Below the pieces are notes generated by a model. That model searched no databases. It saw only the letters and a program-made list of their open reading frames with translations, and was not told the origin of the DNA. Source: Opitutaceae bacterium (GTDB taxonomy: Bacteria; Verrucomicrobiota; Verrucomicrobiia; Opitutales; Opitutaceae). Taken from it: a stretch of 64,000 nucleotides of DNA. Positions 36,259-48,457 of this stretch are shown one piece after another. The number at the start of each line of letters is the position of its first letter. The first letter of the stretch is position 1. The DNA lies in NCBI GenBank assembly GCA_027490995.1, contig JAIXWY010000003.1:124001-188000 (forward strand), in the 5' to 3' direction. A program made the translations under genes and the position numbers.

Positions 36259-38127
36259 ATGGCGCGGGGCTTCGCCTCCAACTATCGCATCGTGCTCGTG
36301 GCGGCGACCGTGATGGTCTCGCTCGCCGGCATCGCGCTGCGCCTCGTGCATCTGCACGTCATCGACCGTGAGCGCCTGACCAGCTTCGTCGAAAAGGTCC
36401 GCCGCCAGATCGTGGTCGAGCCAGCGCGGCGTGGTGACATTTTGGATGCGCGCGGTAAGTTCCTCGCGACGTCCCGATCGCAGATCACGCTCGGCGTCGA
36501 CCCGCAGGTGCTCCGAGCGGAGGACGAATCGAAGTGGCCTGAGCTGGCCCGCCTTCTTGGGATGCCGCTGCGCGACCTCGAAACGGTGTTCCGCACCAAG
36601 GTGCGCCCCGCCTCGGCGGTGCCGACCGTGGGCGACGCCGGGGGGCCGATCGATCTCGATCCCGCGGATGCGGAGCCGGATGGCGGACGGCGGATTCGCT
36701 GGGCGAAGCTGGGTGAGGGCATTGAAGAGGAAACGTACGAACGCATTGTGAAGCTCGGCGTGCGCGGTGTTTACGCGCCCCCGCGGGTGTTCACCCGGGC
36801 TTACCCCAGCAACGATCTTGCGGCACACGTGGTCGGCTTCGTGAACGACGAGGGAGTGCCGGTGCAGGGCATCGAGCGCTGGGCGGATTTTTATCTGCGC
36901 GGGCAGGATGGCTGGCGTGAGTCGGAGAAGGACGGCAAGCGCCAGGAGCTCGCGCAGTTCCGCGTGCGGGAGATTCCGGCGACGCGCGGCTACGACGTCG
37001 TGCTGTCGATTGACTCCGTCATCCAGCACAAGGTGGAAGAGGAACTGGCGCGGGTGGTGGCGGCCTCGAAGCCGGAGAAAGCGACGATCATCGTGAGCGA
37101 TGCGCGCACGGGATTCCTGTTGGCCTTGGCGAACTGGCCCTCGTTCAATCTCAACGAGTATCGCAGCATTCCGGCGACCGAGATGCGCCGCCTGCGCAAC
37201 ATTGCGGTCGCGGACGTGCTTGAGCCGGGATCGACGTTCAAGATCGTGCCGGCCGCTGGAGCGTTGCAGGAAGGTCTCGTCTCGATCCGCGATTCCTTCG
37301 ACTGCTCGCTTGATCGCATCGAGTACAAGGGGCGGATGCGCGAGTTGCCGCGTGAGGATCACCGCTTCACGCACCCACTCACGCTCTCGGAGATCATCTC
37401 GCATTCCTCCAACAAGGGCGCGGCGCAGCTCGGCATGCTCCTTCAGGAAAAGCGCCTTCATGATTATGCGCGGGCTTTCGGTTTCGGCGAACCCACCGGG
37501 CTCGCTTCGATCTACCCGGAGGCAGGCGGCCTGTTCGCACACTTTTCCAAATGGAGCGGGTCCGACATCACGCGCATTCCGATGGGACACACGGTGGCCG
37601 CGACGCCGCTGCAGATTCACTATGCGATGGGCGTGATCGCGAGTGGCGGCGAATTGCTCCGCCCTCAGGTCGTGCGAGAAATCCGGAATGCTCAGGGCGA
37701 GACGGTGTACCGCTTCGCACCCGTGACGCGCCGCCGGGTGATCTCGGACGGTACCGCCAAGGCCATGACCACCATGCTGGCGCGCGTGACCGTGCAGGGC
37801 GAGGGCACGGCTCCCGTCGCCGCGATTGCCGGCTACGAAATCGCCGGCAAGACGGGTACGACTCAGAAGCTGATCAACGGACGCTACTCGAGCCAGCATC
37901 ACATCGCCTCGTTCGTCGGCTTCTTTCCGGCCAGCCGGCCCGAGCTCGTGATCTCCGTGATCGTGGACGATGGCCATGGCCCGAACGGCGGCACGGGCTA
38001 CGGATCGACGGTGGCGGCCCCCAGCTTTAAGCGCATCGCCGAACAGCTCATCCAGTACCTCGACATCAAGCCGGGTGGGGCGGCGTTGGCCCGTCCGTTG
38101 TTTGCATTGGAGGGCGGTCGGCCATGA
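36259..38127 (+). CDS. ftsI: Peptidoglycan transpeptidase FtsI (PBP3-type, class B)
   Basis: 622 residues, septal D,D-transpeptidase. N-terminal anchor helix (IVLVAATVMVSLAGIAL), PBP dimerisation domain with RRGDILDARG, and a transpeptidase domain with all three active-site motifs: STFK (about 325-328, catalytic Ser), SSN (383-385) and KTG (531-533, in AGKTGTTQK). No PASTA domains. The intact active site argues for real cross-linked peptidoglycan. ATG at 36259, with a TTG two codons before it. The last four bases overlap the murE start (ATGA), so translation is coupled. Confidence 0.95.
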   Translation: MARGFASNYRIVLVAATVMVSLAGIALRLVHLHVIDRERLTSFVEKVRRQIVVEPARRGDILDARGKFLATSRSQITLGVDPQVLRAEDESKWPELARLLGMPLRDLETVFRTKVRPASAVPTVGDAGGPIDLDPADAEPDGGRRIRWAKLGEGIEEETYERIVKLGVRGVYAPPRVFTRAYPSNDLAAHVVGFVNDEGVPVQGIERWADFYLRGQDGWRESEKDGKRQELAQFRVREIPATRGYDVVLSIDSVIQHKVEEELARVVAASKPEKATIIVSDARTGFLLALANWPSFNLNEYRSIPATEMRRLRNIAVADVLEPGSTFKIVPAAGALQEGLVSIRDSFDCSLDRIEYKGRMRELPREDHRFTHPLTLSEIISHSSNKGAAQLGMLLQEKRLHDYARAFGFGEPTGLASIYPEAGGLFAHFSKWSGSDITRIPMGHTVAATPLQIHYAMGVIASGGELLRPQVVREIRNAQGETVYRFAPVTRRRVISDGTAKAMTTMLARVTVQGEGTAPVAAIAGYEIAGKTGTTQKLINGRYSSQHHIASFVGFFPASRPELVISVIVDDGHGPNGGTGYGSTVAAPSFKRIAEQLIQYLDIKPGGAALARPLFALEGGRP

Positions 38128-39719
38128 TCAGTTATCTGGTTTCCCCCTCCCGGGCCCGTCGGCTCCCGCGTGACACGGCGGGTCGTTCCCGGGTGTCATC
38201 GGCCTGGACCGGCCCGGTGCTCGGCGCGCGTGTGCGGTTGGCGGACCTGCTCCGGGTCGACGAGATGCTCGCGGTCCGAGGTTCTCTTGCTCGGCCGGTC
38301 TCGGGGTTGGCGATCGACAGCCGCCGGGTGGCGCCAGGCGACGTTTTTTTTGCGTTGCCCGGGCGTCGAGCCGATGGGTCGGACTTCGTGGATGAGGCGG
38401 TGGCGCGTGGCGCCGTGGCCGTGGTGTCTGCGCGGCTCCCGAAGGCCATGCCGTCGCGGGTCACGGCGTTGCAGGTCGCGGATGCCCGCGAACTGCTGGC
38501 GCGGGTAGCGCAGCGTTTCTATGGGTTTCCGGACCGGGCGCTGGGAGTAATCGGCGTGACGGGGAGCCGGGGTAAGACATCCGTGGCGCATCTGCTGCGG
38601 CATCTCCTCGGGCAGCCCGGCGGACAGCGAGTGGGGCTGATCAGTTCGATTCACTACGACCTCGGAGCGCGCACCGTCCCGGCCTACCTGACGACCCCGG
38701 AGGCGTTGGACACCTTCGGCCTGCTCGCGCAGATGCGCGACTCCGGTTGCCGCGAGGCGGTGGTGGAAGTGAGCGCGCAGGGCATTGATCAACAGCGGGT
38801 CTTGGGTGTGCGTTTTGGCGCGGTGGTGTTCACCCACCTGGCGGAGGAGGCGGCGGAGTGTCGTCGGGACCTGGCCTCCTGCTTTGATCTGAAATCGCGG
38901 CTCTTCACGGGTGAACTCGGAGTGCAGCCCGGGGTGGCGGTCGTAAATCTCGATGATCTGCAGGGTACGACCCTGCGGGAGCGTATTCCGGCGGGCGTGC
39001 GGGTGGTGACGTTCGGTGAATCGCCGGCGGCGGAGGTGCGAGCGGAGGCGGTGGAGTGCGACGCATCGGGTGCGCGCTTCCGCCTGGTCTGGCCCGGTGG
39101 ACACGCGTGGGTGTCGTCGCCCCTGATCGGCCGGCCGAATGTCAGCAATCTCCTCGCGGCGGTGGCGACCCTCTGGGCGCTCGGCCGTGATCCAGCGGCG
39201 GTGGTGGCGGCGGTCCCGACTCTGGCGGCCGTCCCGGGGCGGATGGAACCAGTCGAGGCGGGGCAGCGTTGCCACGTCGTCGTGGACGCGGCGAATGCGG
39301 CCGGTCCGTTGGAAACGGCGCTGGCGACGGTGCGCGCTGGAACTGCGGGACGCGTCATTGTTGTTGTCGGAGCGGCCGGCGACCGGGAACGCTCGGGGCG
39401 TGCGGCGTTGCTTGCCGCGGCCCAGCGTGGCGCGGACTTCGTCATTGCGACCGCTGACAACCCGCGCACGGAAGGAGTCTGCCGGGTCTTTGCCGATCTC
39501 GAACGTGGCGTCACCGAACCCGCGCGCGTTGCGTGGATTGAGGATCGCCGGCGTGCGATTGCGCTCGCGCTCGACATGGCTGGGCCGGCCGATGCGGTGT
39601 TGATCGCCGGCCGCGGGCATGACGGTTACCAAGAGATGGCGGATACGATCGTGCCCTTTGATGATCGGCAGGTCGCGCGGACCCTGCTCGCAATGCGCGG
39701 AGCACGGGGGGGAAGCTAA
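38124..39719 (+). CDS. murE: MurE-family Mur ligase (UDP-MurNAc-tripeptide synthetase) with eroded signature motifs
   Basis: 531 residues in the murE slot, overlapping ftsI by ATGA. Expected to add meso-diaminopimelate to UDP-MurNAc-L-Ala-D-Glu. Three Mur-ligase domains are present. P-loop TGSRGKTS (146-153), carbamylatable Lys257, the DAP-recognition motif DNPR (445-448) and a terminal PFDDRQVA are retained. Several otherwise conserved motifs are altered: SSHAL reads SAQGI (217-221), TNLxxDHLDYH reads THLAEEAAECR (237-247), DYAHTPDAL reads DAANAAGPL, and GKGHE reads GRGHD (496-500). There is also an N-terminal extension of about 37 residues. Either a lineage-specific divergent MurE or one with reduced activity; family identity is certain, activity is not. 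Confidence 0.88.
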   Translation: MISYLVSPSRARRLPRDTAGRSRVSSAWTGPVLGARVRLADLLRVDEMLAVRGSLARPVSGLAIDSRRVAPGDVFFALPGRRADGSDFVDEAVARGAVAVVSARLPKAMPSRVTALQVADARELLARVAQRFYGFPDRALGVIGVTGSRGKTSVAHLLRHLLGQPGGQRVGLISSIHYDLGARTVPAYLTTPEALDTFGLLAQMRDSGCREAVVEVSAQGIDQQRVLGVRFGAVVFTHLAEEAAECRRDLASCFDLKSRLFTGELGVQPGVAVVNLDDLQGTTLRERIPAGVRVVTFGESPAAEVRAEAVECDASGARFRLVWPGGHAWVSSPLIGRPNVSNLLAAVATLWALGRDPAAVVAAVPTLAAVPGRMEPVEAGQRCHVVVDAANAAGPLETALATVRAGTAGRVIVVVGAAGDRERSGRAALLAAAQRGADFVIATADNPRTEGVCRVFADLERGVTEPARVAWIEDRRRAIALALDMAGPADAVLIAGRGHDGYQEMADTIVPFDDRQVARTLLAMRGARGGS

Positions 39720-39727
39720 CGCGGACC

Positions 39728-41101
39728 ATGCCTACCTTCAGCCCAGAATTTCTGGCCCGGGCAACGGGCGGTGAGTGGACGCGGCGGCCGGAGCGCGGCT
39801 TGACCGGCTTCACGCAGGACACCCGGGCTCTGCAGCCCGGCGACGTCTTCGTTGCGTTGCGGACGGAGCGTCGGGACGGCCATGCCTTTCTGGGTGAAGC
39901 GCGGGCGAAGGGAGCATCGGCGGCGCTGGTGGCGCGGATAGATCCGGCGGAGTCCCTGCCGCAGTTGGTCGTCGCTGACCCCCTGTTGGCCCTACAAGCG
40001 GCGGCGCGCGAGCATCGCCGCCGTTTTCGCGGACCGGTGATCGGGATTTCGGGCAGTGCGGGAAAGACCTCGACGAAGAACCTGCTGGCGGAGCTCCTTG
40101 GCGGCGAACCGCGCGTGTTGGCCACGCGGGGCAATCTGAATAACCATCTCGGAGTGCCGCTCACGCTGCTGCGGCTGGATCCGCAGGAACACGCGTACGC
40201 CGTGGTGGAAGCCGGGATCAGTGTTCCCGGCGACATGCCGCCGCTGGCGGCGATGATCGAGCCGGATATTGGAGTGATCACGATGGTCGGTCCGGCTCAC
40301 CTTGAGGCGCTGGGATCGTTGGCGGGCGTGGCGCGTGAGAAAGCCGAGCTGCCACGGGCCGCGCGTCTGGCGGTGTTTCCGACATCGTGCCTCGACTACA
40401 CCGCGTTCCGTGACTTGACCGTGCCGACGCTGAAGGTGGAGCGCGTGGAGGCCCCGGCGGCCCTGCGGGAGCCGCTCGGGGCCGATCGGGCGCGGTACAC
40501 GCTTGAGCGGAGTACGGTGACGACGGAGCTCCGGCTGTCGGCCGCACCGGACATCGCGTTCACGATGGGTTTCGTGTCGGATGGCTTGGCGCAGAACGCA
40601 GCACTCGCGTTGGTGGTGGCGCTGCGCCTCGGTCTACCGACCGATTCCCTGCGGCAGCGGCTGGCGGCGTGGCGGCCGGGTGACCTGCGTGCGGAAGTGC
40701 GTCGCGTGGGAGATCGCTTGGTTTACGTGGATTGCTACAACGCCAACCCCGCTTCGATGAACGACGCGCTGGATGCCTTCCTCCGCGTCGCGCCGGAAGC
40801 GCAGCCGAGGCTGCTCCTGCTCGGGGCGATGGAGGAACTCGGGACGGAGGCGGAGCGTCATCACCGTGAGCTCGGCCGCCGTTTGCCGCTGCGGTCGGGT
40901 GACGCGTGCTGCTTTGTGGGAGGGTACGGTGACGCGGTGCGGGCGGGAGCGCGCGAGGCTGGACTCGCGCCGGAGCGCATCGAACTCGTGCCCGATGCCG
41001 CGAGTCTGGCCGGCCGCGTCGCGGCCTTCCGCGGATCCGTCTTTGTGAAGGGCAGCCGTCGGCATGCGCTTGAGCGCGCGCTGGGGGAGGCCGGGCACTG
41101 A
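39728..41101 (+). CDS. murF: UDP-MurNAc-tripeptide:D-Ala-D-Ala ligase MurF
   Basis: 457 residues. Adds D-Ala-D-Ala to complete the UDP-MurNAc-pentapeptide. In contrast with the murE and murD genes in this cluster its motifs are close to canonical: P-loop ISGSAGKTSTK, GNLNNHLGVPLTLL, VGPAHLEALGS followed by AREKAEL, DCYNANPASMNDAL, LGAMEELG and the C-terminal VFVKGSR. ATG at 39728, eight bases after murE. Starts 13 bases before mraY after its stop. Normal length. Confidence 0.95.
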   Translation: MPTFSPEFLARATGGEWTRRPERGLTGFTQDTRALQPGDVFVALRTERRDGHAFLGEARAKGASAALVARIDPAESLPQLVVADPLLALQAAAREHRRRFRGPVIGISGSAGKTSTKNLLAELLGGEPRVLATRGNLNNHLGVPLTLLRLDPQEHAYAVVEAGISVPGDMPPLAAMIEPDIGVITMVGPAHLEALGSLAGVAREKAELPRAARLAVFPTSCLDYTAFRDLTVPTLKVERVEAPAALREPLGADRARYTLERSTVTTELRLSAAPDIAFTMGFVSDGLAQNAALALVVALRLGLPTDSLRQRLAAWRPGDLRAEVRRVGDRLVYVDCYNANPASMNDALDAFLRVAPEAQPRLLLLGAMEELGTEAERHHRELGRRLPLRSGDACCFVGGYGDAVRAGAREAGLAPERIELVPDAASLAGRVAAFRGSVFVKGSRRHALERALGEAGH

Positions 41102-41114
41102 GCCCTGTGATGCC

Positions 41115-42233
41115 ATGCTGAGCTACCTCTCCGAACTCGAAGAACTCTTCGGCCCCCTGCGCCTGCTGCGATTCATCACGCTGCGCACGCTGCTGGCGGC
41201 CATGACTGCGCTGGTGATCGGATTTGTCATCGGCCCGATGCTGATCGCGTGGCTGCGACGGCTGAAGTTCGGGCCGAGCTATGACGATGATCGCACGGGC
41301 GACCTCGCTCAGCGCTTCGACAAGAAGCACACCCCGACGATGGGCGGGTTGATGATCTTCGCTGCGGTGACGGTGAGCACGCTGCTCTGGGCGGAGCCGA
41401 ACATTTGGGTACTGGTGGCGCTGGGCGTGTACGCCTCGCTGACGGCCGTGGGCTTCCGGGATGACTACCTGAAGGTACGTCGGGGCAACCGCTCCGGCAT
41501 CTCGTCCCGCGAGAAGATCATCTGGCAGACCCTAGTGACCCTCGCGGCTCTCGTGGCGCTGGCGTGGCATCCCGTGAGTGCTGAGCCGATTCGCGAGCTG
41601 TGGGTCCCTTTCCTGAAAGTGCCGCTGTGGGTGGGGATGCCCGTCGTGGCTCTCTTCATCCTGATGTTCCTGTGGATCGTCGGATTCTCGAATGCGATCA
41701 ACCTGACCGACGGCCTCGATGGCCTCGCGATTGGCTGCACCATCACCGTGGCGCTGGTTTACGGACTGATGGCCTATGCTGCGGGCAACGCGCGGATCGC
41801 GGAGTACCTGCTGATCGGCTACGTCCCGGGCACGGGTGAGTTGGCGGTCGTGTGCGGCGCGCTTGTCGGTGCGGGCATGGCTTTCCTCTGGTTCAATTCG
41901 CATCCCGCTGAAGTGTTCATGGGCGACACCGGGTCTCTGGCCCTGGGCGGACTGATCGGCGTGATCGCCTTCATGGTACAGCAGCCCCTCACGCTCGCGA
42001 TCGTCGGAGGGGTATTCGTGGCCGAGGCGCTCTCCGTCATCATCCAAGTCGGCGTCTTCAAGTGGACGAAACGCCGCAGTCCCACCGGGGAGGGTCGGCG
42101 CTTCTTCCTCATGGCCCCGCTGCACCATCACTTCCAGAAGAAGGGCTGGCCGGAGACGAAAGTCGTGCTCCGGTTTTGGATCATTTCACTCCTGTGTGCC
42201 CTCATTGGGCTGGGGACGCTCAAGCTCCGCTGA
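41115..42233 (+). CDS. mraY: Phospho-MurNAc-pentapeptide transferase MraY
   Basis: 372 residues, about ten transmembrane helices. Transfers phospho-MurNAc-pentapeptide to undecaprenyl phosphate, making lipid I. Catalytic features are intact: FRDDYLKV with the Asp pair, NLTDGLDGLA with the key Asp, and the HHHFQKKGWPE loop that marks MraY. Also HTPTMGGLMI and GDTGSLALGG. ATG at 41115 (MLSYLSELEELF). Together with MurF, MurG, MurJ, FtsW and FtsI this shows a functional lipid-linked stage. Confidence 0.97.
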   Translation: MLSYLSELEELFGPLRLLRFITLRTLLAAMTALVIGFVIGPMLIAWLRRLKFGPSYDDDRTGDLAQRFDKKHTPTMGGLMIFAAVTVSTLLWAEPNIWVLVALGVYASLTAVGFRDDYLKVRRGNRSGISSREKIIWQTLVTLAALVALAWHPVSAEPIRELWVPFLKVPLWVGMPVVALFILMFLWIVGFSNAINLTDGLDGLAIGCTITVALVYGLMAYAAGNARIAEYLLIGYVPGTGELAVVCGALVGAGMAFLWFNSHPAEVFMGDTGSLALGGLIGVIAFMVQQPLTLAIVGGVFVAEALSVIIQVGVFKWTKRRSPTGEGRRFFLMAPLHHHFQKKGWPETKVVLRFWIISLLCALIGLGTLKLR

Positions 42234-42239
42234 TCGACC

Positions 42240-43082
42240 ATGCTTCAGCCTCCGCCCTTCCTGACTTCGCTGCTCTCCCGACCCGTCGTGGTGGTGGGTT
42301 CAGAACCCGCTGCGGCCGGCGTGACATCGTTGCTTTCAGGCTTGGGCGTTGAAGTGTGGCGGCATGACCATCTGAGCGCGGCGGCGGGCGATCCCGCGCC
42401 TGGACTCGCGGTGCTTGCGGCGGGGGCGGATCTTGATGGCCAGCCCGAGGGTGTGGCGTCGGGTCGTCCGTCCGGCTGGGTGGTGTTGCGCGAGAATGAC
42501 CTCGCCCCGCTCCTGTGGCGTGGGCGTCTCCTCGTGGTGACCGGTACCCGTGGCAAAACGCGGCTCGTGCGTTTGCTGACCGAAGCGCTGCACCTGGCCG
42601 GCAAGGACGTGGTCGGCGCGGAGCGAGCAGACGGCGGATTGGCCGGCGTGGTGGCGGCGCGGCGCGGTGGTGCGCCGGACTCTATTTTGGTGAGCCGGAT
42701 GGATGCGGGCGAATCCCTGGCCCTGCGGCATCTCCGGGCAGATGCCGTGATCTGGACTAACCTGCTTGAGGAGGAAGCCGCGCGGCACGGCTCGATGGAG
42801 GCGGCCTTTGCGGCGGGTTGGCGCATGTTCGAGCGGGCGGTGGGCGGAGACGTGTTTGCCGGAGAGACGGTCCAGCGCTGGGCGGATCGTCTGGGCCAGA
42901 CCTTGCCGCCGGACTCGCGCGTGGCGACGGACGATGCGTCGGGCGACGTGCTCCTCCGTCACACCTTGTTCGAGGCGGAGCCGGCGCATGAAACCTTCCT
43001 CCTTGCTGCGGCCTGGTGGCGGGCCGCTGGCTTGCGCGAGAGCGTGCTTTACGCGGCGGCCCAAGGGGCGGTTGCACGCTGA
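42240..43082 (+). CDS. murD: Degenerate, C-terminally truncated MurD homologue
   Basis: 280 residues in the murD slot between mraY and ftsW; MurD is normally about 450. N-terminal UDP-binding-like domain (1-97), then a central Mur-ligase domain with TGTRGKTR (101-108), where the usual last Thr is Arg. The segment TNLLEEEAARHGSMEAAFAAGWRMF (173-197) aligns with the MurD motif TN..DHLDRHGSMEAY..AK..IF, but DHLD has become EEEA and the carbamylated lysine is Gly193. The protein ends where the C-terminal domain should begin, and the 54 bases after the stop hold no remnant. Open frame and codon character are normal, so it is probably expressed as a non-catalytic protein. Genuine D-Glu ligase activity looks impossible. 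Confidence 0.8.
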   Translation: MLQPPPFLTSLLSRPVVVVGSEPAAAGVTSLLSGLGVEVWRHDHLSAAAGDPAPGLAVLAAGADLDGQPEGVASGRPSGWVVLRENDLAPLLWRGRLLVVTGTRGKTRLVRLLTEALHLAGKDVVGAERADGGLAGVVAARRGGAPDSILVSRMDAGESLALRHLRADAVIWTNLLEEEAARHGSMEAAFAAGWRMFERAVGGDVFAGETVQRWADRLGQTLPPDSRVATDDASGDVLLRHTLFEAEPAHETFLLAAAWWRAAGLRESVLYAAAQGAVAR

Positions 43083-43136
43083 ATCCACCGACCTTTCGCA
43101 TAGCTTCGATTCCTCTTTGAGCTTATCCTTTCGATC

Positions 43137-44207
43137 ATGAAAATCCTCCACATCTTCGGCGTCGTGGTCGCGGTCCATCTCGGGGTTTTCCTCGTGATTT
43201 TCGCGGTGCCCGGCTGCCGTACGACGGCGCGCAAGACGCCGCCGACTCCGGCTGACACGCTCGCGGCCGCTCCTGCGGCGGAGTCCTCCGATGTCCTCGC
43301 CGCCGCGCCCCTCGCGGAGTCGGGCTCGCCGCTCGCGGCGGCACCGGAGGCCCCGACTTCATCCGCGCCGGTCGATGCGACGGTCCGCTTCAGTCCGACC
43401 CGCCCGGGCACGCCGGCGGCAGGTGCGGTGGCACCGGCGACCGTCGACGGTGTCACTCCTGCCCGTACGCATACGGTGGTGCGAGGTGACAGCCTGTGGA
43501 CCGTGGCGAAGCGCTACAACCTGACCGTCGCCGAGGTCGCGGCGGCCAATCAACTCTCGCAGACGTCCTCCTTGAAGATTGGCCAGAAGCTGATCATCAG
43601 CGCGGCGAAGCCGGTGACCGCAGCGGCGGGTGGAGTGACCGGAGCGGCGGCCGCGAACGACGATGCAACGGTGCACGTGGTGAAGGGCGGCGACACGCTT
43701 GGCACCATCGCGCGGCAGCATGGCACCACGATCGCCACGCTGAAGCGGCTGAACAATCTGAAGTCCGACATCGTGCGTGTCGGCCAGCGGTTGGTGGTGC
43801 CGGAGCGAGGGTCGGCCCTGCCGGAGGCCGGAGCGACGAAGCCGGCGGCCCCGGCGGCGATCACGAATGCGAACGGTGCCTTGGTGCACATCGTGAAGTC
43901 GGGCGAGAGTCTCGATTCGATTCGCAAACGCTACGGTATCTCGGTGGGTGCGCTGGCGACGGCGAACAACATTGCCGATCCCTCGAAGATTCGTCCGGGT
44001 CAGGAACTCATTATCCCCGGTAAGAAGGCGGATGCGGCTGCACCGGTGACGGCCCCCGCGGCGGCGGCGCCGGTGGCGACGCCTGAGGCGGCCAGCCCGT
44101 TTCTCCCGGTCGTGGCGCCCGAGAGTGAATCGCCGCTGACCCCAGCGCCGGAGGTTCCGATCATCCGGGTTGAGGAGACACCCAAGGGCGGTGACGTGGC
44201 CCCGTGA
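43137..44207 (+). CDS. LysM-repeat lipoprotein in the dcw cluster
   Basis: 356 residues. N-terminal hydrophobic segment with a lipobox-like end (AVPGC, Cys27), then an Ala/Pro-rich linker and three LysM peptidoglycan-binding modules at about 112-155 (HTVVRGDSLWTVAKRYN), 179-222 (VHVVKGGDTLGTIARQHG) and 250-295 (VHIVKSGESLDSIRKRYG), followed by an Ala/Pro-rich tail with VAPESESPLTPAPEVP. No hydrolase domain, so probably a structural or recruiting factor at the cell wall. Placed between the murD remnant and ftsW, and not a usual dcw member. ATG at 43137, after a T/C-rich leader. Confidence 0.86.
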   Translation: MKILHIFGVVVAVHLGVFLVIFAVPGCRTTARKTPPTPADTLAAAPAAESSDVLAAAPLAESGSPLAAAPEAPTSSAPVDATVRFSPTRPGTPAAGAVAPATVDGVTPARTHTVVRGDSLWTVAKRYNLTVAEVAAANQLSQTSSLKIGQKLIISAAKPVTAAAGGVTGAAAANDDATVHVVKGGDTLGTIARQHGTTIATLKRLNNLKSDIVRVGQRLVVPERGSALPEAGATKPAAPAAITNANGALVHIVKSGESLDSIRKRYGISVGALATANNIADPSKIRPGQELIIPGKKADAAAPVTAPAAAAPVATPEAASPFLPVVAPESESPLTPAPEVPIIRVEETPKGGDVAP

Positions 44208-44273: not shown

Positions 44274-45440
44274 ATGACCCATTCCGCAGTGACGACCGAT
44301 TCCGTGCGACCGCGGCTCAGCCTGAGCCCGGTGGCGGTCATCGTCGTCTGTGCGGTCGCGCTGACCTTCCTTGGAATCACGATTCTCTTCAGTGCGAGTG
44401 CGGCGTTTAAGCAGGGTCCGCTGTTCTACGTTTCGAAGCAACTTGTCGGGGTGGTTCTGGCGACCGTCGTTGCTTGGGTGGTGAGCCGCGTCGATCTCGA
44501 GCTCGCGCGGCGGTACATCTGGGTGGTGGGAGGGGTGGCAGCGCTGCTGCTGGTCTTGGTGCTGATCCCAGGGCTAGGAATCTCCGTGAAGGGCAGCCGC
44601 CGCTGGCTCGGGTTTGGTGGGCTCCGGTTCCAAGTGTCGGAGATCGGCAAGTTGGCGATGGTGTTTTGTGTCGCCCATTACCTCGCGGCGAATCAGACGC
44701 GGCTGGCCGACTTCTGGCGCGGCTTCGCGCAGCCTCTGCTGATCATCGTCAGCTTCGCGGCGTTGATTGTTCTGGAGCCCGACTTCGGGACGGCGGCCCT
44801 GACCTTTGCGGTGGGGGTGAGCCTGATGTTCCTCGCGGGAGCGCGTTGGCGGTACATCCTTCCGGCGGTCATGTCGGCGGTGGTGGCCTTTGCCGTGTTG
44901 GTGATCCACAACCCGAATCGACTCCGGCGCTTCACCGCTTTTCTAGACGTGGAGGGGAACAAGCAGGGCGGTACCTACCAGCTGTACCAATCGCTCGCGG
45001 CGTTCGCGGTGGGTGGCACGGAGGGAGCTGGCCTGGGGCAAGGGCGGCAGCAGATGAACTTCTTACCCGAGGCGCACACGGACTTTGTCTTCGCGGTGGT
45101 GGGTGAGGAACTGGGTCTCTGGTTTACACTCGGCGTCGTGATCGTCTTCCTGATCATGTTCATCGCCGGACTCGTGCACCTGCGGCGCGCGCCGAACCTT
45201 TTCCATTACCTGCTCGTGGCGGGATGTCTGCTCCTGATGCTGCTGCAGGCGGTGATCAACCTCGGGGTGGTGACCGGCATCCTGCCGACGAAGGGCATGT
45301 CGCTGCCCTTCATCAGCGCGGGCCTCTCCAACCTCATTCTCATGGGCATGATCCTCGGCATTCTGGTGAACACCCAGCGTTCGTGGGGTAAACCCGGGGC
45401 CGGTCTGTCGGCGCGTGGACTCGAAGAGGTGACTGCATGA
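44274..45440 (+). CDS. ftsW: Septal peptidoglycan glycosyltransferase FtsW (SEDS family)
   Basis: 388 residues with about ten helices. Polymerises lipid II at the septum together with FtsI. SEDS hallmarks: LGIxILFSASA-like LGITILFSASAAF, KGSRRWLGFGGLRFQVSE, LVLEPDFGTAAL-like IVLEPDFGTAALTF (catalytic Asp region), NFLPEAHTDFVFAVVGEELG and the final GMSLPFISAGLSNLI, where the usual GGSS is AGLS. ATG at 44274 after a pyrimidine-rich leader without Shine-Dalgarno. Its stop overlaps the murG start by four bases (ATGA at 45437-45440). Confidence 0.95.
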   Translation: MTHSAVTTDSVRPRLSLSPVAVIVVCAVALTFLGITILFSASAAFKQGPLFYVSKQLVGVVLATVVAWVVSRVDLELARRYIWVVGGVAALLLVLVLIPGLGISVKGSRRWLGFGGLRFQVSEIGKLAMVFCVAHYLAANQTRLADFWRGFAQPLLIIVSFAALIVLEPDFGTAALTFAVGVSLMFLAGARWRYILPAVMSAVVAFAVLVIHNPNRLRRFTAFLDVEGNKQGGTYQLYQSLAAFAVGGTEGAGLGQGRQQMNFLPEAHTDFVFAVVGEELGLWFTLGVVIVFLIMFIAGLVHLRRAPNLFHYLLVAGCLLLMLLQAVINLGVVTGILPTKGMSLPFISAGLSNLILMGMILGILVNTQRSWGKPGAGLSARGLEEVTA

Positions 45441-46567
45441 GCCGCTTCCTGATTTCATGCGGAGGGACGGGCGGACACCTTGCGCCTGGCATTGCCCTCG
45501 CGGAGGAGCTGCAGCGGCGCGGGCATGCAGTCCGTCTCCTGATCAGCCGCAAGCAAGTGGACGCGCGATTGGCGGAGAAATATCCGCAGCTTGAGTTTGA
45601 AGCCGTCGCTTCGGCGGGTCTCGAGGGTGGCGTGGCGGGGGTGATCCGATTCGCTCTTGGACAGATGCGCGCGCTCGTGACGAGTTGGCGGAGAGTGCGT
45701 CGGGAACGTCCTGTGGCGGTGATTGGCTTTGGCGGCTTTACGTCGGTTGGGCCGGCGGTGGCGGCGTGGCTGTTGGGTGTACCGGTGGTGTTGCACGAGG
45801 CGAATCGCGTGCCCGGCCGCGCGGTCCGCGTCCTCGGGCGGATTGCCCGGCGCGTGTACCTGCCGCCGGGCGTAGCGCTGGCCGCGGCGCGGCGCGGCGC
45901 GGTGCGGGAGTCGGGCCTGCCCGTGCGGCGTGAGTTTCGGCGCGAGCCGGCCGATGCAGCGCGCCAGTCTCTGGGGCTTCTCGTGGATCGGCCTGTGGTG
46001 GTGGTGCTCGGGGGAAGCCAAGGCGCATCCGCGCTCAACACGTGGTCGCGGGACGCGGCGGCCGAGCTCGCCGAGAATGGAATTCAGCTGTATTGCCTGA
46101 CCGGTCTCGGCAAGGGCACCGAGGAAGTGCGTCGTTTGCGTGATCGCGACGGCGCGGAGGTCCGCGCGATTACGGTGCCGTTTTCGGACCGCATGGCGAC
46201 CGTCCTGTCGGCTGCCGATCTCGCGGTGTCGCGGGCGGGCGCGGGGACGATCGCCGAATTGGTGCGCACGGAGACGCCGGCCGTTCTCGTGCCTTATCCT
46301 CAGGCCGCGGACAACCATCAGGCGGCGAACGCGGCCGCCTTTGTGCGCAACGGAGGAGGGCGACTGTTGCCGCAGGGCCGGCTGGTCGAGCTCACCGCGG
46401 TCGTTCGCTCCCTCGTTTCCGACCCCGCTGCACTGGCGGCCCACCGCGCGGCGCTCCGTTCGGAGCAGGCCGTCGATGCTGCGGTGATGCTGGCGAATGA
46501 CTTGGAGTCGCTCGCGCTGCCCGGGCGAGAGGCGTCGTTGCGTTCAACGAAGGAGCAGGCCGTATGA
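45437..46567 (+). CDS. murG: UDP-GlcNAc:lipid I N-acetylglucosaminyltransferase MurG
   Basis: 376 residues, peripheral membrane GT28 enzyme that converts lipid I to lipid II. Motifs: SCGGTGGHLAPGIALAEEL at the N-terminus, FGGFTSVGPAVAAWLLGVPVVLHEAN, LGGSQGASALN, SRAGAGTIAEL and PYPQAADNHQAANA. All are canonical. Overlaps ftsW at its start and murB at its end (ATGA, 46564-46567). In most bacteria murC follows murG; here it is absent. Confidence 0.96.
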   Translation: MSRFLISCGGTGGHLAPGIALAEELQRRGHAVRLLISRKQVDARLAEKYPQLEFEAVASAGLEGGVAGVIRFALGQMRALVTSWRRVRRERPVAVIGFGGFTSVGPAVAAWLLGVPVVLHEANRVPGRAVRVLGRIARRVYLPPGVALAAARRGAVRESGLPVRREFRREPADAARQSLGLLVDRPVVVVLGGSQGASALNTWSRDAAAELAENGIQLYCLTGLGKGTEEVRRLRDRDGAEVRAITVPFSDRMATVLSAADLAVSRAGAGTIAELVRTETPAVLVPYPQAADNHQAANAAAFVRNGGGRLLPQGRLVELTAVVRSLVSDPAALAAHRAALRSEQAVDAAVMLANDLESLALPGREASLRSTKEQAV

Positions 46568-47523
46568 GCACCGGACTGCACATCGATTGGGAGTCACTCG
46601 CCGCATCCCTGCGCGCTGCCCTTTCTGTGGAGTCGGGCCTGCGGCGCGAAGAACCTCTGGCGACGCGAACGACCCTGCGCGTCGGGGGAGCGGCACGGAT
46701 TCTGGCCGAACCGGCCTCGGAGGCCGATCTCGCGTCGGTCTTGCAACGCACCACCGCCGCCGGCGTCCCCGTGATCATGCTGGGACGCGGCTCGAATCTC
46801 CTCGTGCCCGATTCCGGGGTCGATGCGGTGGTGATCAGTCTGGGTCATCCTGCGTGGCAGCGCTTCGTTCCTGAGGCAGACGGCCGGGTTCGCGTCGGAG
46901 CCGGGCTGCGCTTGAAGAACCTCTGCGGGCTGGCGAGCAAGGCGGGCTTGGTCGGCTTCGAATTTCTCGAGGGCATTCCCGGCAACGTTGGCGGCGCCCT
47001 GCGGATGAATGCGGGTGCCATGGGTGGCTGGATGTTCGATGTCGTCGAGGAAGTCCGTGTGATGTCGCGCGATGGCGCCGTGCGGACTTACCGTAAGGCG
47101 GAGATGAAGGTCGATTACCGCCACTGCGCGGAGCTTGAGACGGCCATTGCCTTGGAGGCGGTGTTGCGGCCGGCGCGCGTGGCACCGGGTGGCGATGAAG
47201 CGATCCGGCGGCAGATCGACGCGTACCGCGACAAGCGCCACCAGTCCCAGCCGCGGGAGCCGAGTGCGGGGTGTATGTTCAAGAACCCGCCGGGAGACTC
47301 GGCGGGTCGCCTGATCGATGCGGCGGGACTCAAGGGAGAGCGGGTCGGCGGGGCCGAGGTGTCGACCGTGCATGCGAACTTTATCATCAATCGTGGGGGC
47401 GCCACCTCGGCGGACGTGATCGCGCTCGTGCGGCGCGTGCGGGAGCGCGTGCAGGGTGTGAGTGGCGTGACGCTGGAACCGGAGGTTCTGCTTTACGGCG
47501 GTGATTGGCGGAAAGAACTTTGA
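46564..47523 (+). CDS. murB: UDP-N-acetylenolpyruvoylglucosamine reductase MurB
   Basis: 319 residues, FAD-dependent reductase that makes UDP-MurNAc. FAD-binding segments RVGGAARIL, LGRGSNLLV and GIPGNVGGALRMNAGAMGGWM are intact. The catalytic proton donor position in AGCMFKNPPGDSAGRLIDAAGLKG is Cys rather than the usual Ser of GSxFKNP. Cysteine there is chemically able to substitute. C-terminal HANFIINRGGATSADV matches type II MurB. Start overlaps murG by ATGA; the ddl ATG lies four bases after its stop. Confidence 0.95.
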   Translation: MSTGLHIDWESLAASLRAALSVESGLRREEPLATRTTLRVGGAARILAEPASEADLASVLQRTTAAGVPVIMLGRGSNLLVPDSGVDAVVISLGHPAWQRFVPEADGRVRVGAGLRLKNLCGLASKAGLVGFEFLEGIPGNVGGALRMNAGAMGGWMFDVVEEVRVMSRDGAVRTYRKAEMKVDYRHCAELETAIALEAVLRPARVAPGGDEAIRRQIDAYRDKRHQSQPREPSAGCMFKNPPGDSAGRLIDAAGLKGERVGGAEVSTVHANFIINRGGATSADVIALVRRVRERVQGVSGVTLEPEVLLYGGDWRKEL

Positions 47524-47527
47524 ACCG

Positions 47528-48457
47528 ATGACAACACCCTCCCCGACGATCGTGGTCCTGTGTGGCGGAGTCTCGGCCGAGCGCGAGGTCTCGCTGGGCT
47601 CCGGCCGCGCGAGCGCGCTGGCGCTGGCGCGGAGCTTCCCCACGCGACTCGTGGACGTCCGCGAGGCACGACTGCCGGCGGGGCTGGATCCGGCGCGGGA
47701 TGTGATCTTCTCCACGCTTCACGGCACCTTCGGAGAAGACGGCGCGATGCAGTCGCTGTTGGACGCGGCGGGCGTGCACTACGCGGGCTGTGATGCGGCG
47801 TCGAGCGCGCTGACCTTTGACAAGGAGCGGACCAAGCAAGCCGTGGCGGCCGCCGGCGTGCAGGTGGCGGCGGGGGTGAGCTTCCCGGCATCGCGCCGGC
47901 CGACCACGGCGGAACTGGTGGCGCGGTTGGGGCCGGAGGTTGTGCTGAAGCCCCGGGCTTCGGGCAGCAGCGTCGGTCTCGCGGTGTGTGACGACCCAGC
48001 GGGTCTTGAGCGTGCGCTGGCCGGCTTGGCGGACGGTGAGTGGTTGGCGGAGCAGCGGATTCGCGGTCGGGAACTCACGGTGGGCCTGCTCAACGGCAAG
48101 GCCATGGGCGTGGTGGAAATCCTGCCGCAAGGCGGTACCTTTGATTACACTTCCAAGTACACCAAAGGCCTCACGCAATACCTCGCGCCGGCGCCGTTGC
48201 CGGCCGCGGTGACGGCGGCCGCGCAGGCCGCGGCGGAGCGTGCCTTCGCCGCCTGCGGTTGCCGTGATTATGCGCGAATCGACTTCATGCTCTCGCCGCG
48301 CGACGAGCTGTTTTTGCTCGAAATCAACACGCTCCCCGGCATGAAGGACACGAGCCTGCTGCCCATGAGCGCTCGCTGCGCGGGATTAGATTTTACCCAG
48401 TTGGTGAGGGAGTTGGTCAGCCCGGCGTTGCGGCGTTTCCGCGGCGGGATCTGCTGA
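47528..48457 (+). CDS. ddl: D-alanine--D-alanine ligase
   Basis: 309 residues, ATP-grasp enzyme producing the D-Ala-D-Ala used by MurF. CGGVSAEREVSLGSGR (N-terminal), HGTFGEDGAMQ, KPRASGSSVGL, EILPQGGTFDYTSKYTKG and LEINTLPGMKDTSLLPMSA are the family signatures. The ATG at 47528 is chosen, since an in-frame GTG at 47501 overlaps murB and adds a non-conserved leader. FtsQ starts two bases after its stop codon. Presence of ddl and murF implies a D-Ala-D-Ala terminated stem peptide. Confidence 0.95.
   Translation: MTTPSPTIVVLCGGVSAEREVSLGSGRASALALARSFPTRLVDVREARLPAGLDPARDVIFSTLHGTFGEDGAMQSLLDAAGVHYAGCDAASSALTFDKERTKQAVAAAGVQVAAGVSFPASRRPTTAELVARLGPEVVLKPRASGSSVGLAVCDDPAGLERALAGLADGEWLAEQRIRGRELTVGLLNGKAMGVVEILPQGGTFDYTSKYTKGLTQYLAPAPLPAAVTAAAQAAAERAFAACGCRDYARIDFMLSPRDELFLLEINTLPGMKDTSLLPMSARCAGLDFTQLVRELVSPALRRFRGGIC

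Follow-up and report, generated by a model that had tools for sequence, protein, structure and literature searches.

The window analysed here, i.e., the whole stretch of 64,000 nucleotides, stems from the genome of a freshwater bacterium (G000, 94.67% complete) and contains a dcw cluster. In the murD slot of this cluster, mraY is followed by a short gene on the + strand (42240..43082) and, after a gap of 54 bp (43083..43136), by a LysM protein gene starting at 43137. The short gene, a putative pseudo-murD, encodes 280 amino acids that cover the N-terminal and central domain regions of MurD, while the C-terminal ligase domain is absent. That is, it is located like a full-length murD between mraY and the LysM/ftsW genes but differs by the missing C-terminal domain and by the replacement of the active-site Glu, His and Lys. 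The LysM gene itself (43137-44207) shows the lowest identity between the window and the sister species G006 (73%) among the 12 genes compared.

With regard to its origin, the short protein shares descent with MurD: compared to six full-length MurD proteins of the genus encoded at the same locus, E-values range from 7.6e-69 to 2.2e-75 with identities of 45-49%. Profile models recognize it poorly, i.e., it reaches 21.7 bits for Mur_ligase_M (Pfam cut-off 24) and 18.7 bits for the MurD model (cut-off 211.95), and it does not show the three domains of a MurD since a Mur_ligase_C match is missing. The alignment with the six relatives reveals four replacements of conserved residues, namely Arg104 for the Asn of GTNGKT, Arg153 for the Glu of the CEVSS/CEISS motif, Glu179 for the His of DHLE/DHLD and Gly193 for the Lys of AKWRLF. 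The latter three sites presumably match the catalytic positions Glu157, His183 and Lys198 of E. coli MurD. In the available text of PMC3060825, Lys198 of MurD is described as carbamoylated. While the GKT of the P-loop is retained, the other catalytic residues are replaced, such that the short form shows the motifs GTRGKT, SRMDA, EEAA or EESG, and AGWRMF, compared to GTNGKT, CEVSS or CEISS, DHLE or DHLD, AKWRLF, and DSKATN in the full-length relatives. The preliminary description of the locus had already pointed to the altered DHLD element, to Gly193 at the carbamylated lysine position and to the Arg within the P-loop, all of which the alignment bears out, but it had missed Arg153. Its further statement that the gene stops after the central domain with no remnant in the following 54 bases also holds: 140-aa C-terminal queries from two relatives found no remnant within the 64 kb window (best E-value 3.4), while the same queries recovered the control at 6e-51 or better. 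Likewise, no C-terminal MurD remnant was found in the clusters of the sister species G006 and G008. A structure prediction of the short protein from three sequences reached a mean pLDDT of only 37.8.

The short-MurD query matches in all ten genomes of the genus group that includes the window genome. The same 280-aa form is found in G008 (94% identity) and G006 (84% identity), both of which share all four replacements; G006 differs at residues 180-181. Among the seven other relatives of the genus, six carry a full-length MurD with normal motifs in open frames of at least 426 aa, and in the seventh (G001) murD is spread over two frames, between which bases are undetermined.

To quantify selection, dN/dS was computed by NG86 (YN00 gave no estimate for many pairs); since NG86 shows a bias at high G+C and the frames, taken between stop codons, include some upstream codons that were not trimmed, we rely on between-gene comparisons of the values only. 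For the three species pairs, short murD shows dN/dS values of 0.081, 0.101 and 0.104, which compare to 0.103, 0.116 and 0.143 for murF and 0.079, 0.093 and 0.097 for mpl from the same pairs, as well as to 0.060-0.105 for full-length murD (four pairs). The differences within short murD are mainly found at third codon positions (42, 26, 150; 20, 8, 87; 38, 24, 147), and none of the three species shows a frameshift or stop, i.e., the frame is as clean as initially described. Along the protein, residues 121-160 show the greatest divergence between the window and G005 (11/40 identical, tied with residues 41-80), while 36/40 are identical between the window and G006. This is expected if the region was altered once and then held. 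With dN/dS of about 0.08-0.10, i.e., not near 1, the gene is maintained, and the earlier proposal of a retained protein is in accordance with the observed purifying selection. A non-catalytic role in complex assembly or sensing, also proposed there, fits this constraint, while the data do not discriminate between such roles.

The preliminary description considered the dcw cluster to be otherwise intact, which we cannot support. The gene for MurE (38124..39719, + strand, 531 aa) is full length and reaches 389.8 bits for the murE model (cut-off 257.3), but GTNGKT is changed to GSRGKT, RDHLDYH to EEAAECR, DYAHTDD to DAANAAG, and KGHESYQ to RGHDGYQ; DNPR is retained. In G006, MurE has lost DHLDYH, DYAHTDD, the Asn of GTNGKT and KGHESYQ, plus the Lys of VKSRLF, while the C-terminal 208 residues present on the G008 contig show the same DAANAAG change. 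Since the protein still scores above the model's cut-off, we infer its inactivity from the motif loss. This putative pseudo-murE shows a slightly higher evolutionary rate than active copies, with dN/dS values of 0.10-0.17 vs. 0.05-0.10.

MurC is affected as well. Within the genus, MurC and MurB come after murG in G001, G002, G003, G005, G007 and G009, where both form a single-frame fusion in five of the six genomes and are separated by a stop codon in G001; the contig of G004 ends ahead of the MurC place. In the window, G006 and G008, MurB remains and the MurC half is absent. No MurC remnant was found in the window, where the best match (E-value 0.11) is located at 53.7-53.9 kb of the opposite strand. 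Given the lost MurC and the lost MurE active site, the whole MurC-MurD-MurE segment is affected, i.e., judged by sequence, the de novo precursor pathway is broken.

The remaining genes are in place. All on the + strand, the cluster encodes MurF (39728..41101; 303.9 bits, cut-off 288.6) with motifs like those of relatives with a complete pathway, MraY (41064..42233; 348.8 bits, cut-off 192.05), MurG (45437..46567; 231 bits, slightly below the cut-off of 250.25), a free-standing MurB of 319 aa (46564..47523; 207.4 bits, cut-off 144.5) and the D-Ala-D-Ala ligase Ddl (47501..48457; 281.5 bits for NF002378, cut-off 243). A MurB-MurC fusion is described for Verrucomicrobia in the available text of PMC4803751 and PMC5303756 and is carried by relatives in the genus and the family, while in the window the MurB half alone survives. 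For three subdivision-4 Verrucomicrobia, including Lacunisphaera strain IG16b, the same part of PMC5303756 lists nearly all essential peptidoglycan genes with MurB and MurC as one protein, in accordance with what is seen in the MurC/MurD-bearing branch of the family.

We also searched G000 for the true MurD that was initially expected to lie elsewhere in the genome and found none: the four matches to the MurD model are all below its cut-off. Mur_ligase_M (PF08245, E<=10) matches at five places, i.e., in MurE, MurF, Mpl, a FolC-like protein (labelled from reading its sequence) and the short gene, and no stand-alone MurD C-terminal domain was detected in G000. At E<=0.001, the glutamate racemase MurI was matched in none of the ten genus genomes, MurD-bearing ones included. 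MurI is therefore uninformative as a marker of D-Glu use, and D-Glu may be made in some other way within the genus.

Beside MurE, MurF and the short gene, G000 encodes one MurC-like protein, which we predict to be Mpl. It reaches 384.1 bits for the Mpl model TIGR01081, just under the cut-off of 388.7 (as do the sisters' proteins with 385.3 and 386.4 bits), compared to 242.2 bits for the MurC model (cut-off 335.1). Its best PDB sequence match is the Psychrobacter Mpl 3hn7 with 302 bits, while the best MurC chain reaches 161. The motifs GTHGKTT, EGDEYD and FDHADIF are retained without a motif gap, and the protein is 94% and 87% identical to those of its sisters, such that Mpl looks intact in all three short-MurD species. 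Mpl-type matches were found in 10/10 genus genomes. Comparing 18 sequences from loss lineages with 7 from MurC/MurD-bearing ones (a second Mpl of G006 left out), no Mpl alignment column separates the two groups. This second G006 copy (L070, on contig C89 of 4205 bases) is 69% identical to the copy on contig C3 and is either a duplicate or a contaminant.

An AmpG-like permease is present in all three short-MurD species and in two of the seven other genus members (G004, G005); in the other five genomes none was found. In the three species it scores 195-198 bits for TIGR00901, below the curated cut-off of 350; even so, no NCBIfam model matches it better than this AmpG model, and it is surrounded by recycling genes. 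In the window genome, the respective cluster (L151, 3124-12760) comprises an M20 peptidase, AnmK, MurQ, GHL10, the AmpG-like permease, amidase_2, a GH3 enzyme similar to NagZ (200 bits, cut-off 207) and a dipeptide-epimerase-like protein of the enolase superfamily. The latter matches ten NCBIfam models, each below the curated cut-off. Most of these genes are also found in the AmpG stretches of G004, G015, G029, G048 and G081. As predicted from its gene content, the cluster is equipment for muropeptide import and breakdown to peptide.

To see how widespread the loss is, we screened a family sample of 250 genomes drawn evenly from a larger group, with up to seven candidates scored per genome. 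The MurD alignment is matched by 184 of them and 66 show no match. Among the latter, we re-tested the 16 that, out of 20 listed, reach at least 90% completeness (92-100%); one of them, G078, has a completeness rating of 100% and consists of one contig with a length of 4,150,783 bases. MurD is absent in 16/16: 12 genomes show a match of 64-82 bits, which falls within MurE in the 12 clusters read, and four show none at 1e-15, while MurD-bearing controls score 290 and 303. MurC was not found in any of the 16 either, and Mpl is present in 15 (all except G063). We read the dcw clusters of the 12 genomes other than G045, G062, G063 and G088; in these clusters, mraY is followed by the LysM gene and murG by a free-standing MurB. 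G045, G062, G063 and G088 are the four genomes that show no MurD-model match at 1e-15, unlike the other 12, which match via MurE. The window clade's degenerate MurE (3.1e-6) would also fail this threshold, i.e., MurE may be degenerate or lost in these four. Finally, G069, G185 and G196, from the genus group of the MurD-less G026 and G094, show weaker MurD matches (E-values about 1e-89) that may stem from shortened MurDs or from pieces at contig edges.

The two losses go together. Over 42 clusters, MurC is present in 25/25 MurD-bearing clusters that extend as far as the MurC position (all but G004 and G114) and absent in 15/15 clusters without a functional MurD. On a tree of the 42 genomes based on eight other cluster proteins, at least 8 changes are needed, all forced by well-supported branches, and a single clade of the 15 loss clusters is rejected (p-AU 7.8e-84). 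The tree results from a quick search and shows long branches for G046, G028 and G052; without these as well as G010 and G004, 7 changes remain under a mixture model. While the tree alone cannot discriminate loss from gain, the conserved place of MurC and MurD argues for loss. Among the clusters read, MurE is lost in the window clade only; the active-site motifs are retained in 12/12 other loss clusters, such that UDP-MurNAc-dipeptide probably still exists there. In these 12, either dipeptide is the substrate loaded by Mpl or there is a different reason for the retention of MurE. AmpG-like genes tend weakly to be more frequent in loss lineages, with relatedness left uncorrected in each comparison: 12/16 loss genomes vs. 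24/49 others (p=0.087), 15/19 vs. 26/56 with the window's genus added (p=0.017), and 11/16 vs. 14/49 at a 165-bit threshold picked after seeing the scores (p=0.007).

Taken together, we consider the window's bacterium probably to be a stem-peptide auxotroph that is fed via Mpl and retains MurD and MurE as pseudo-ligases without catalytic function. In this scenario, the lineage would have given up de novo UDP-MurNAc-tripeptide synthesis, and Mpl would attach a ready-made peptide in place of the MurC, MurD and MurE steps. D-Glu would arrive within this peptide, such that the initial expectation of a different D-Glu addition is likely to hold in this form. The reading is supported by the affected set, since MurC, MurD and MurE are the very enzymes bypassed by Mpl while MurB, Ddl and MurF, which Mpl does not replace, all remain, and also by the recurrent joint loss of MurC and MurD in the family. 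Further support comes from the scores and motifs of Mpl, the mere five places with a Mur_ligase_M match, the AmpG-like permease with its recycling neighbours, and the purifying selection on both short murD and murE. On the other hand, Mpl was not found in the MurD-less G063, AmpG-like genes are also found in non-loss lineages and the permease scores below the AmpG cut-off, which counts against it. Furthermore, MurE is dispensable under tripeptide feeding; its intact form in 12 loss clusters thus speaks against pure tripeptide feeding in those lineages, where dipeptide may be loaded instead. As, among the clusters read, MurE is lost in the window clade alone, the tripeptide reading is best supported there. 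The findings suggest that the bacterium feeds in part on pieces of cell wall that come from itself or from neighbouring bacteria. Since recycling of its own wall alone could presumably not sustain net growth, an outside supply would be required. With less confidence, we infer that the pseudo-ligases are kept as non-catalytic parts of the cytoplasmic precursor machinery, i.e., they may serve as docking or sensing subunits together with MurF, MraY, MurG or Mpl.

A wider scenario extends this to the family, which we regard as a tentative idea. Here, many parallel losses of MurC and MurD would have led to a peptide-first wall made via Mpl, in which lineages with intact MurE would load L-Ala-D-Glu, possibly from epimerised L-Ala-L-Glu, while the window clade would load tripeptide and its MurD and MurE would by now be conserved non-catalytic subunits. 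The peptide-first route by itself seems slightly less probable and thus unlikely: L-Ala-L-Glu would be made or imported, epimerised to L-Ala-D-Glu and loaded by Mpl, with MurE and MurF finishing the precursor, and tripeptide would again be loaded in the window clade. It is consistent with the MurE motifs kept in all 12 non-window loss clusters, with the epimerase-like gene that accompanies AmpG within the same stretch in G000, G006, G008 and the loss genomes G029, G048 and G081, and with the unmatched MurI in 10/10 genus genomes. However, the epimerase-like gene is also found in the MurD-bearing G004 and G015, the window's version stays below all its curated cut-offs, the MurI result covers the window's genus only, and a peptide-making enzyme was not identified. 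Furthermore, the recycling epimerase YcjG is described in the available part of PMC9928106 as converting L-Ala-D-Glu to L-Ala-L-Glu, and Psychrobacter Mpl, according to the accessible text of PMC3060825, handles L-Ala-D-Glu at 1.4 per min vs. 260 per min for the tripeptide, i.e., at about 0.5% of the tripeptide rate.

Somewhat more doubtful is an unrecognised or unassembled enzyme that supplies both MurC and MurD activity, with the short MurD as a by-product of gene replacement. Profile searches are blind to a non-homologous replacement and G000 is only 94.67% complete, but three sister species (94-97% complete) agree, as do the 16 further genomes without a MurC or MurD match, of which one is a single contig. 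We already disfavour, as quite improbable, the idea that the lineage is about to lose its wall and that short MurD and MurE are decaying leftovers. While the faster murE and the further residues lost in the MurE of G006 would fit, short murD shows dN/dS of 0.08-0.10 with third-position differences and an unbroken frame in three species, and ftsI (window, G006), ftsW, mraY, murG, murF and ddl are kept. Finally, a sequencing or assembly artefact that masks a full gene, as raised in the preliminary description, is very unlikely to the point of being negligible since, even with two relatives being metagenome assemblies, three assemblies of different species share the same 280-aa end, a gap of no more than 54 bp separates the short gene from the next one in the window, and no C-terminal remnant was found in the window or in the clusters of G006 and G008.

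We also compared the Mpl-fed reading with known systems, as far as the accessible portions of the cited sources describe them. The Mpl recycling route of Psychrobacter and E. coli (PMC3060825) uses the same enzyme type, and the window genome has AmpG-like, NagZ-like, amidase, AnmK and MurQ genes like that route; there, however, Mpl works beside MurC, MurD and MurE, while here it would be the sole route. Peptidoglycan auxotrophy is already known. Fidelibacter multiformis IA91, which is unable to synthesise MurNAc, D-Ala, D-Glu, DAP and lysine, meets it by exogenous muropeptides (PMC11652737), whereas in the window genome MurB, MurF and Ddl are kept and the first stem-peptide steps are lost. The MurNAc auxotroph Tannerella forsythia (PMC7670621, PMC5388701) likewise combines partial loss of the precursor pathway with AmpG-type uptake but misses the sugar steps MurA/MurB instead of the peptide steps. 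Within titles and abstract openings of the open-access literature, we found no precedent for a family that has repeatedly lost the peptide steps but retains MurB and MurF, nor one for dead MurD and MurE under selection.

Two dead Mur ligases under selection would offer a way to ask about roles of these enzymes besides catalysis. MurC and MurD are generally considered indispensable and attract interest as targets for antibiotics. Their repeated loss with the rest of the machinery kept would provide natural examples of cells that depend on a recycling enzyme, and such a family would make the exchange of wall peptides between bacteria directly testable.
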